From NCBI GenBank assembly GCA_021324915.1, contig JAJPIC010000012.1, forward strand, positions 62,001 to 126,000: a DNA stretch of 64,000 bases, given 5' to 3'. Source of the DNA: Beijerinckiaceae bacterium (lineage in GTDB: Bacteria; Pseudomonadota; Alphaproteobacteria; Rhizobiales; Beijerinckiaceae). A program made the translations under genes and the position numbers. Positions 1-56,452 of this stretch are shown here, piece by piece. The notes beneath the pieces were generated by a model. That model saw only the letters and a program-made list of their open reading frames with translations. It was not told the origin of the DNA and made no database searches. How positions within the stretch are numbered: the first letter of the stretch is position 1; the number at the start of each line of letters is the position of its first letter.

Positions 1-26
1 GGCTGATCGATCCTAGAATTTTAGAG

Positions 27-95
27 CGGGATTTGCGCGAAAAGCCGATATCCACTTTTTCGCATCCCGCTATCCACTTTTCGCATCCCGCTCTA
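27..95. repeat. Dispersed palindromic repeat (module B) with a duplicated arm, abutting glyQ stop
   Basis: tagagcgggatttgcgcgaaaagccgatatccactttttcgcatcccgc followed by a second tatccacttttcgcatcccgctcta; same family at 2271-2323, 55686-55735 and 55788-55852. Confidence 0.9.
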
Positions 96-1073
96 AACCG
101 CCGACTCCGCCTCTGCGCCCGCCCCACCCGCCTTTGTCTTCAACCATGCCCGGCCGCAAGCCTTTGCGAGTTCCCGCACCCGCAGAATATAGCTTTGCCG
201 CTCGGTGACTGAGATTACGCCGCGCGCGTCAAGGAGATTGAAAATATGCGAGGCCCTGATGCATTGATCATAGGCCGGTAGAACCAACAGATGCTGGGCG
301 TCGCGCTCGCCTTGCTTGAGCAGAGCCTTGCATTCGGCTTCCGCGTCCTTGAAATGCTGAACGAGCGCGCCGACGTCCGCCGCCTCGAAATTATAGCGCG
401 AATATTCCTCCTCGGCCTGTTTGAACACGTCGCCATAGGTGATCTTCTCGGCGCCGTCGCGGCCGTTGAAATTGAGCTCGAAGACGTTCTCGACACCTTG
501 CACATACATCGCCAGCCGTTCGAGCCCATAGGTCAGCTCGCCCGAGACCGGCGCGCATTCAATTCCAGCGACCTGCTGAAAGTAAGTGAATTGCGAGACT
601 TCCATTCCATCGCACCAGCATTCCCAGCCGAGCCCCCAGGCGCCGAGCGTCGGGCTTTCCCAATCGTCCTCGACGAAACGGATGTCGTGCATGGATAGAT
701 CGATGCCGATGGCTTCGAGCGAGCCGAGATAGAGATCCTGCAAATTCTCCGGCGAAGGCTTCAGGATCACCTGAAATTGGTAATAATGCTGGAGACGATT
801 GGGGTTTTCGCCATAGCGGCCGTCTTTAGGTCGGCGCGAGGGCTGCACGTAAGCGGCTTTCCACGCAAGCGGCCCCAGCGCGCGCAAAATGGTTGCCGGA
901 TGAAACGTGCCGGCGCCGACTTCCATGTCATAGGGCTGCAGGATCACGCAGCCTTGCGCCGCCCAGAATTTTTGCAGCGCGAGAATAAGGCCCTGGAAAG
1001 AGCGCGTCGGATCGAGCCAATCGGAATTGCGAGCTTGGGCGGCACGGGTCATGACAATGTCGTCGGGACTCAT
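93..1073 (-). CDS. glyQ: Glycine--tRNA ligase alpha subunit
   Basis: [44 protein letters not shown] is the GlyQ N-terminal signature; full length. Confidence 0.97.
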
Positions 1074-1448: not shown

Positions 1449-2201
1449 TCACCAATTGATCAGCGCTTCGCCGCGATTAACTTTCTCGATTTGAGCCTGA
1501 AATCCCTGCGCGTCATGCAAGACGAGCGCGGGCGCGATTTTGAGCGGAGCGCGGCTGCCTTTTTTGGCGCGCAACAGAATTCGATGGGCCGGCGCTTCGC
1601 TGCGCGCCTGGATCGGCAGAAGGGTCAGCGCACCGGCGGAACTCGTGACGGAGGCGAGGAGCTCCGTCAGCGCATCCGGCCGGTGGATCATGAGGAAGAG
1701 GCCGCCCTCCTCCAGCAAAGCCATCGATGCGGCAATCCATCGGGCGAGCGGGTCCGTGCCTGAAAAAGGCATGGCATAGGCTGAACGCTTGGCCTCCGAT
1801 TGCGGGAGCCGGACCCGTGCCGGATCGAAATGCGGCGGATTCGTGATCACGAGGCGCGCGGAAGCTGCCGCGAGACCGGCTCTCTCGAGGCTCGCGAAAT
1901 CGAGAAGATCGGCCTCGTAGACATGGCCGCGCTCAGCAAGGCCATTCAGCGCGAGGTTCTCCCGCGCAAGCGCCGCGGTGGCCGGATCATTCTCGATGAG
2001 CCCGATTGTGATCCCCGGCCGAAGCACGGCGAGCGCAAGGCCCGCCGCCCCCACTCCCGCGCCGATATCCAGCGCAAGGCCGTCAAGGTCTTGCGGAGCC
2101 GCTGCCGCAAGCAAAATGGCGTCCGTGCCGGCACGGTGGCCTTCGACCGGCTGGCGCAATTGAAGCCGGCCCCCGAGAAAGCGATCGAGGCTGATCGGCA
2201 T
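1449..2201 (-). CDS. tRNA1(Val) (adenine-N6)-methyltransferase-like SAM methyltransferase
   Basis: LDIGAGVGAAGLAL SAM motif and NPPHFDP catalytic motif; N-terminal GGRLQLRQPVEGHRAGTDAILLAAA typical of the TrmN6/YfiC family. Confidence 0.85.
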   Translation of the reverse strand: MPISLDRFLGGRLQLRQPVEGHRAGTDAILLAAAAPQDLDGLALDIGAGVGAAGLALAVLRPGITIGLIENDPATAALARENLALNGLAERGHVYEADLLDFASLERAGLAAASARLVITNPPHFDPARVRLPQSEAKRSAYAMPFSGTDPLARWIAASMALLEEGGLFLMIHRPDALTELLASVTSSAGALTLLPIQARSEAPAHRILLRAKKGSRAPLKIAPALVLHDAQGFQAQIEKVNRGEALINW

Positions 2202-2206
2202 GGTCC

Positions 2207-2323
2207 TAGATCACGATGCTTCCGGATCGGATCGATCCAAAAGCAGTGAACGTGATCGATTCTAAAGATCTAGAGCGGGACTGGCGCGAATATCCGGAGC
2301 CCGCTTTTTCGCATCCCGCTCTA
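2207..2323. repeat. Bipartite dispersed palindromic repeat (module A + module B)
   Basis: Module A tagatcacgatgcttccggatcggatcgatccaaaagcagtgaacgtgatcg, then module B tagagcgggactggcgcgaa...tttttcgcatcccgctcta. Confidence 0.9.
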
Positions 2324-2548
2324 GCCGACATCGCGCAATTCCGCGGCAAACCCCGCCTGTAAAAGCGTTCGGCGCGCCCTTGCGGCATCTTCGCTTTGCA
2401 CGAGAACCCGGCGCGGCAGGAAGCCGAGCGAACCTTCCAGCGCACTCATGAATTGGTCGGCGACGAAAATCTCGATTCCGCTATCTGCCAGAATGGCTTC
2501 GACCGCCGAGATAAGTACGAGATCATTGGTGCGTAAAAGTTCGATCAT
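2321..2548 (-). CDS. DUF2007-family protein
   Basis: MIELLRTNDLVLISAVEAILADSGIEIFVADQFMSALEGSLGFLPRRVLV matches the DUF2007 pattern. Confidence 0.85.
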   Translation of the reverse strand: MIELLRTNDLVLISAVEAILADSGIEIFVADQFMSALEGSLGFLPRRVLVQSEDAARARRTLLQAGFAAELRDVG

Positions 2549-43958: not shown

Positions 43959-44003
43959 TTAGATCACGATGCTTTTTGAATCGGATCGATCCAAAAGCAC
44001 GCA
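43959..44003. repeat. Dispersed repeat module A
   Basis: ttagatcacgatgctttttgaatcggatcgatccaaaagcacg. Confidence 0.8.
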
Positions 44004-55398: not shown

Positions 55399-55628
55399 CT
55401 GAATCGCCCCCCGAATCAGTTGTTTAGGCTGTGATTAAGTTTTAGGAAACTCTTACCCTTCGTCAAACGTTATTCGGGGTTTGGATGATTTTCCTGAAGC
55501 CGCGTGTAGCGCGCGACACGGGCCGTTCGGCTTGCCGCCAATCTAGCGAGTCTTATCAAGGGCCTGCGATTTCGAGCGCCGCTCGCGCGCTTAACTCGTT
55601 AACGCCGGGACCGGCATCCGCTGGATCG

Positions 55629-55852
55629 CGATGCTTTTGGGTCGAATCGTGCCAGAACCATAAACCTGATTCGATTCAAAAGATTTAGAGCGGGATTTGC
55701 GCGAAAAACCGGCGTTCACTTTTTCGCATCCCGCATTAGATCACGATGCTTTTGGATCGGATCGATCCAAAAGCATGAACGTGATCGAGCGGGATTTGCG
55801 CGAAAAGCCGGTGTCCACTTTTTCGCATCCCGCTCAATCGCATCCCGCTTTA
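55629..55852. repeat. Compound array of dispersed repeats (A-B-A-B-half B)
   Basis: Degenerate A (55629-55685), B (55686-55735), A (55737-55788, near-perfect dyad gatcacgatgcttttggatcggatcgatccaaaagcatgaacgtgatc), B (55788-55833), extra half-arm aatcgcatcccgctttag. Confidence 0.9.
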
Positions 55853-56452
55853 GCGGCAGAAGGCGCGGGCACTGGCCGTCCATTGGCCGAAGCCGCTCGC
55901 GACCATGTTGGCGATCACCGCGCAGACATATTGCTTTTGCGCCGGATCATTATTGGGCCCGGCGTGATAGCGGGCCGCGGCCAACGTCCAACTGCCTTCC
56001 TCGGCGTCGAGCTCCTTGAGATAGCGCGCGGCATAATCGACGTTCTCGTGCGGGTCGAACATATCGGCGACCGACCGGAAGTCGCTCGCGTGATAATAAT
56101 GGTTGATCTGCATACAGCCGATATCGATCAGCTTGGCGCCGTTGCGGCGCGCCTTGTCGAAGAGCTGCATGGCTTCGCTGAGATCGGCCGGAAAATAGGA
56201 TGGCCCCTCGATATTGAGCGCATAAGGACTCAGCGAGCCCCGCCTTCCGGTCTCGGTCAGACCCACCGCATAGAGCACGCCGAGCGGCACGCCATATTTT
56301 GCCGCAGCCCGAGTCATCTCCCTTTCGCAAAGCAGCGCCGGCTCACCCGGCATCGCGAAACTAGACGTAGAGATCAGCAGTGTGGCGCCGAGCAGCGCCG
56401 TCCTGGGATAAACCAGGATTTTGCGAATTGCGGCCACGAGCCGAAGAATCAT
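55850..56452 (-). CDS. Lytic transglycosylase-like protein in flagellar cluster
   Basis: CEREMTRAAAKYGVPLGVLYAVGLTETGRRGSLSPYALNIEG...KLIDIGCMQINHYYH; signal peptide starts at 56452 (ORF extends to 56551). Confidence 0.88.
   Translation of the reverse strand: MILRLVAAIRKILVYPRTALLGATLLISTSSFAMPGEPALLCEREMTRAAAKYGVPLGVLYAVGLTETGRRGSLSPYALNIEGPSYFPADLSEAMQLFDKARRNGAKLIDIGCMQINHYYHASDFRSVADMFDPHENVDYAARYLKELDAEEGSWTLAAARYHAGPNNDPAQKQYVCAVIANMVASGFGQWTASARAFCR

Follow-up and report, generated by a model that had tools for sequence, protein, structure and literature searches.

A two-armed repeat with a probable CTAG target preference on stop codons of a Beijerinckiaceae genome

Repeat tips at gene ends in the window

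We analyzed a stretch of 64,000 nucleotides (the window) from the genome of a soil alphaproteobacterium (Beijerinckiaceae), G000, whose assembly comprises 3.07 Mb in 28 contigs. On the minus strand, glyQ ends in GCG GTT TAG, and its TAG (93-95) coincides with the three outermost bases of a repeat tip, TAGAGCGGGATGCGAAAA. The DUF2007 gene ends in GGC TAG with the stop at 2321-2323 on an X tip of the repeat, and the SLT transglycosylase gene ends in CGC TAA with the stop at 55850-55852, again on a repeat tip. An earlier note on this DNA had described these three coincidences, and we found all of them in the sequence. The features are as follows.

4..95, minus strand: repeat copy at glyQ (from the sequence; HMM match 4-71), made up of a duplicated X tip (~72-95), an X arm (~22-71) and a truncated Y-arm start (~4-21)
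93..1073, minus strand: glyQ, glycyl-tRNA synthetase alpha subunit (Pfam PF02091, 1-277/278, complete)
1449..2201, minus strand: methyltransferase gene with MTS domain (Pfam)
2207..2323, minus strand: full-length element with both arms, running from its X tip (2323) to its Y tip (2207) and flanked by TA at either end
2321..2548, minus strand: DUF2007 gene (PF09413)
43961..44003, minus strand: Y-arm-only fragment (TAGATCACGATGC...; HMM match positions 73-114)
55622..55852, minus strand: two head-to-tail elements (~55624-55734 and ~55738-55835) plus a duplicated X tip
55850..56452, minus strand: SLT-domain transglycosylase-like gene (PF01464; longer ORF), ending FCR-TAA on the repeat tip

At glyQ the base before the TA is T, not C. 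The copies at glyQ and SLT carry partly duplicated X tips at their outer edge (~23 bp and ~15 bp, respectively), of which that at SLT ends in the TAA at 55850-55852; both are perhaps remnants of nested insertions. The motif TAGAGCGGGA was found 11 times in the window with at most one mismatch, compared with 3.65 times in shuffled sequences, and no Rfam family matched the repeats within the window.

Anatomy and distribution of the repeat

The earlier note had taken the palindrome TAGAGCGGGA...TCCCGCTCTA for a full-length copy. This palindrome is arm X only, and the whole unit is larger, i.e., about 112 bp plus TA, with arm X, a linker and arm Y ending ...CATCGTGATCTA (consensus TA-GAGCGGGATGCGAAAAAGTGGAcACCGGTTTTTCGCGCAAATCCCGCTCTAAATCTTTAGAATCGATCACGTTCATGCTTTTGGATCGATCCGATCCAAAAGCATCGTGATC-TA). 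The full-length element in the window (2207..2323) measures 115 bp including one TA. As had been proposed, each outer end reads TAG inwards, i.e., TAGAGC at X and TAGATC at Y, and the two ends, GAGCGGGATGC and GATCACGATGC, agree at 8 of 11 positions.

Folding and an alignment of 50 copies confirmed an element of ~110 bp with two inverted-repeat arms and a linker. Arms X and Y each fold into a long hairpin; that of arm X is strong and begins at the stop codon itself, and the full unit reaches -61.8 kcal/mol. Arm pairing was kept through two-sided changes at 9 of 23 predicted pairs in the alignment, a count dominated by two lineages with differing arm sequences; palindromic mobile DNA may preserve pairing for reasons besides RNA function. 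The linker of the G000 consensus holds GAATC, and some G000 copies have a GANTC in the arm-Y loop as well, where the consensus of genomes G019 and G006 also has GATTC. GANTC was not over-conserved in G000 copies (0.85-0.89, compared with a mean of 0.887).

A profile search in 305 kb of G000 around repeat matches gave 59 pieces at 49 loci. The whole-genome search scored 40 of 76 candidates, hence copy numbers are lower bounds. Copies also form head-to-tail arrays with a period of 114 bp, and assembly contigs C4, C17, C21 and C25 break at ends inside such arrays. TA is retained at only ~60-80% of the element ends, and an insertion model with TA as target has to put its absence from the remaining ends down to decay. 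The element also occurs in Methylovirgula and other Beijerinckiaceae MAGs (named records), and further hosts of the same element are Sinorhizobium/Ensifer, Nitrobacter, Aestuariivirga, a Caulobacteraceae MAG and others.

Stop codons and empty sites

Genome-wide, among sampled copies, the offset of the repeat to stop codons was non-random; the earlier note had suggested a comparison of this kind. A stop lay exactly at the outer edge at 15 of 44 sampled loci with at least one intact end, compared with 0.3 loci under uniform placement (P ~1e-22), and we rejected this null. The sampled regions were the 305 kb of G000 around repeat matches, and gene ends came from our own caller, a codon-usage scorer trained on the window, not from a curated annotation. 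Thirteen of the 15 stop-making loci were assigned automatically, whereas glyQ and SLT, with their duplicated tips, were assigned by hand. Among intact ends facing the 3' end of a gene, 14 of 32 form the stop, with the two duplicated-tip cases additional. The 16 stop-making ends genome-wide comprise 11 X and 5 Y ends, a bias that is not significant (simple binomial ~0.2, an estimate). At C18:54841-54955, a single element separates two convergent genes and each of its ends provides the stop of one of them; in the joined site their stops share one TA, and insertion supplied TA plus G to each gene.

Genes ending on the element include, besides glyQ, those for pdhA (E1 component), tolQ (MotA/TolQ/ExbB), a tRNA-synt_1c protein, an M23 peptidase, an ABC ATPase, an HNH nuclease, an HpcH/HpaI aldolase, a SIMPL protein, a DyP peroxidase, a DUF1993 protein and the DUF2007 protein (all by Pfam). 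Their Pfam domains are essentially complete, and we therefore regard the ends as natural and not as truncations. With one TAG per inward end, some in-frame stops are bound to arise, and our gene calls are home-made, so one might suspect chance or an annotation artefact, with ORF calls ending at the first TAG, supplied by the repeat. The excess over uniform placement, the complete hosts (glyQ, pdhA, tolQ, DyP peroxidase and others) and the orthologues ending at the same residue (see below) make this explanation extremely improbable.

To reconstruct an empty site, we excised the element between DUF2007 and the methyltransferase gene. Keeping one TA gave a continuous methyltransferase, MSARTMPISLDRFLGGRLQLRQ..., with 13 codons to FLGG, equal to relatives G009, G008 and G001. 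Removing both TAs broke the methyltransferase frame, and we hence rejected the assignment of both TAs to the element; this result, together with the native TAG stops of relatives at SIMPL and HNH (see below), supports a TA target-site duplication. The ancestral methyltransferase start, ATGTCGGC, overlapped the DUF2007 end, as in relatives, where the TGA of DUF2007 and the start of the following gene overlap. The current start is probably the ATG after the element. The old ATG opens a 41-codon frame through the element, and 4 nt separate the TAG of this frame from the new ATG (TAG GACC ATG). This frame might encode a re-initiation peptide and so preserve the translational coupling of DUF2007 and methyltransferase; it is probably accidental, because the element consensus does not preserve it.

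For tolQ, pdhA, DUF2007, SLT, HNH and SIMPL, the proteins of relatives without the repeat stop at the same residue as here; at SLT this residue is followed by TGA or TAA. Because these relatives end at the same codon position, we conclude that the stop positions predate the element, which replaced or duplicated the TA of the stop. The earlier note had stated that a TAG context shared by repeat-free relatives would speak against its reading. They do share it at SIMPL (G009, CAC TAG) and HNH (G005, CCC TAG) and, more loosely, at pdhA in G005 and G007 and at tolQ in G003, but not at DUF2007 and SLT, where relatives use TGA or TAA; the pre-insertion TAG at these two loci is a reconstruction. The C-terminal tail of GlyQ varies in length among repeat-free relatives, so that its exact end before the insertion is uncertain. 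At each of seven compared loci, the repeat at the stop was absent from every relative examined. Orthologous sites within the genus were located in one search, for which the flanks had been joined. The intergenic gaps at tolQ in G002 and G008 are of like length, but their aligned sequence differs and we rejected them as the same element.

These comparisons bear on a second suggestion of the earlier note, namely that insertion reshapes gene ends. Proteins would then be truncated or extended, with the gene using the stop of the element. A precedent is an amidase gene of Erwinia whose 3' end is fused to RU-1 (PMC2759123). In the window, the overlapping start of the methyltransferase gene downstream of DUF2007 was lost, and elsewhere the genes at C4:129753 (L206) and C19:56404 (L224) read through the whole element, while the copy at C15:190403 (L218) lies inside a dus gene. 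Reshaping is real at the methyltransferase start and in a few read-through copies. As a general rule it is very unlikely: the proteins at the six stop-making loci compared above end at the orthologous residue, the host domains are complete, and random TA insertion near gene ends would place two thirds of the copies in the other two frames, of which very few were seen. By product, the read-through and internal copies concern an IF-2B family protein (C4:129753), an RNase_T exonuclease (C19:56404), a dihydrouridine synthase (C15:190403) and an unnamed gene (C21:149477, L229); in the IF-2B gene, ~43 C-terminal residues would derive from the repeat.

Probable CTAG targeting and a possible IS630-type origin

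Directly outside the terminal TA, 46 of 64 intact ends carry a C (P 6e-12 vs 0.30), as do 69% when stop-making ends are excluded. The flanks thus follow the pattern C-TA-[G...C]-TA-G, and in other genera C was found at 45 of 65 readable ends. CTAG itself is depleted, with 121 sites compared with 264 expected (second-order Markov model; 305 kb of G000, elements masked). Of these sites, 40 are intragenic, 53 are intergenic and 28 form NNC-TAG stops, i.e., outside gene interiors 28 of 81 (35%, roughly 25-46%) are stops. A null model drawn from these 81 sites, from the same sampled regions and on the assumption that insertions into gene interiors are lost, predicts 15.2 of 44 stop loci. We observed 15 of 44, therefore no excess beyond CTAG targeting is needed. 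Insertion at any TA would give 4.3 loci (9.7%) and was rejected (P 9e-6), and insertion at YTAR, with 9.1 loci expected (20.7%, P 0.03), fits worse than CTAG. In small samples from two other genomes, the stop share was lower both for the element (4 of ~29 loci in G019, 1 of ~11 in G006) and for CTAG (1/15 and 1/12, respectively); in G019 the flanks show less specificity for CTAG, with an exact match at 15 of 57 tips. The terminal CTAG of elements away from stops is often changed to CTGG or CCAG.

We propose, with a probability of roughly 0.85, that the repeat, with its two arms and ~112 bp, is mobile but non-autonomous, that it inserts at TA, preferably within CTAG, with duplication of the TA, and that this would explain the stop coincidence. 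Insertion into C-TA-G with TA duplication would proceed as in IS630/Tc1/mariner-type elements. Each end of the element begins with G (TA-GAGC..., TA-GATC...), and CTAG would hence be recreated on either side. Outside gene interiors, the commonest functional CTAG of this GC-rich genome is the stop NNC-TAG. Insertion there would leave the protein unchanged, because target choice and the terminal G regenerate the stop from the TA of the target and the first base of the element. Such insertions could then persist as nearly neutral, and tandem arrays may arise by insertion into a regenerated CTAG. It hence looks as if the stop coincidence follows from the CTAG target habit, with stops as harmless landing sites and the repeat not being a built-in stop device.

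The earlier note had suggested such a device, a stop-plus-hairpin 3' cassette, as one possibility. On this view, copies at stops would be kept for an effect on the mRNA such as 3' stability, termination or ribosome stalling. The strong arm X hairpin starting at the stop codon, the folding energy of the full unit and the two-sided changes in the arms speak for it, and E. coli REPs at most 15 nt from the stop have been reported to stall ribosomes (PMC12306157, PMC5082802). We nevertheless consider the cassette unlikely and do not uphold it. The CTAG preference accounts for the frequency at stops without remainder, both ends are used, the insertions are not conserved across the relatives at the seven compared loci, the sequence holds no U-tract terminator structure after the arms, and the remaining copies are intergenic, intragenic or placed upstream of start codons. 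A hairpin abutting the stop (0 nt) may still act on termination, as reported for the REPs, although nothing in our analysis requires it.

As to mobilization, members of the IS630 family insert at TA with TA duplication (PMC2170065); the title of Tenzen and Ohtsubo 1991, cited there, gives the TA in 5'-CTAG-3' as the preferred site of IS630, a preference that the flanks of the present element share. G000 and relatives contain IS630-family insertion sequences of ~1,050 bp with TA-GAGC ends and mostly C outside the TA. One such ~1,050-bp sequence on contig C8 of G000 (L261, ~1381-2430) has C-TA-GAGC at both ends and is a candidate helper. We found no long terminal repeat common to the element and the resident IS630, the match being limited to GAGC(G). 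Since only the tip matches, we infer, and do no more than infer, that an IS630-type transposase acting in trans would be the mobilizing enzyme.

Among known repeats, the CcrM-associated intergenic repeats (CIR) of Caulobacter, Brucella and other alphaproteobacteria (Chen and Shapiro 2003, reviewed in PMC2229807) are alike by their description in that review: ~110 bp, two long inverted-repeat arms with a linker, TA termini, GANTC, alphaproteobacterial hosts and dispersal between genes. In contrast to the present element with its CTAG targeting and TA duplication, CIR are listed in PMC2229807 without a mobility mechanism; moreover, GANTC in the G000 consensus lies in the linker and is not extra-conserved. 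RUP of Streptococcus pneumoniae and other IS630-type MITEs share a length of ~107-112 bp, TA ends and the TA target, and mobilization in trans by a resident IS630 has been proposed for them (PMC2229807). Their sequence is unrelated, however, and the present element has two internal arms and matches its resident IS630 at the GAGC(G) tip only. E. coli REP/BIME are likewise palindromic repeats near stop codons with a potential translational effect. REPs lie downstream of the stop, whereas the edge of the present element is part of it, the cause being target choice. The element hence fits an IS630-type, MITE-like repeat related to the alphaproteobacterial CIR/RIME-like repeats, CIR being compared by description and membership of CIR or RIME being putative. 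Rhizobium intergenic mosaic elements (RIME) have mosaic palindromic arms like the present element, and the arm X form of G019 and Sinorhizobium (core GAAAAGTGTGAGCGGTTTTC) may resemble RIME1.

With this reading, an apparent stop-codon cassette becomes a quantitative consequence of target-site choice. The two-armed alphaproteobacterial repeats, for which PMC2229807 lists the mobility mechanism as unknown, gain a testable insertion mechanism, i.e., at TA within CTAG. Repeats on stop codons need not be selected regulators, and they should be judged against how the target motif is distributed instead of against uniform placement. Essential genes are among the landing sites, so that a hairpin effect at 0 nt from the stop is directly testable. 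We suggest more tentatively, and with clear doubt, that the widespread two-armed CIR/RIME-like repeats are IS630-type miniature elements for which CTAG stops form a protein-neutral safe harbor, and that the hairpins placed on the stops of glyQ, pdhA and tolQ may tune translation.

A second, unlike palindrome, GAGCACGACCTTTCGGAAACTGGTTCCCACTTTTCCGGGGCGTGCTTTA, adjoins copies of the first in the window (~2806-2856) and on contig C7 of G000 (~108060). It may resemble RIME1-type repeats.
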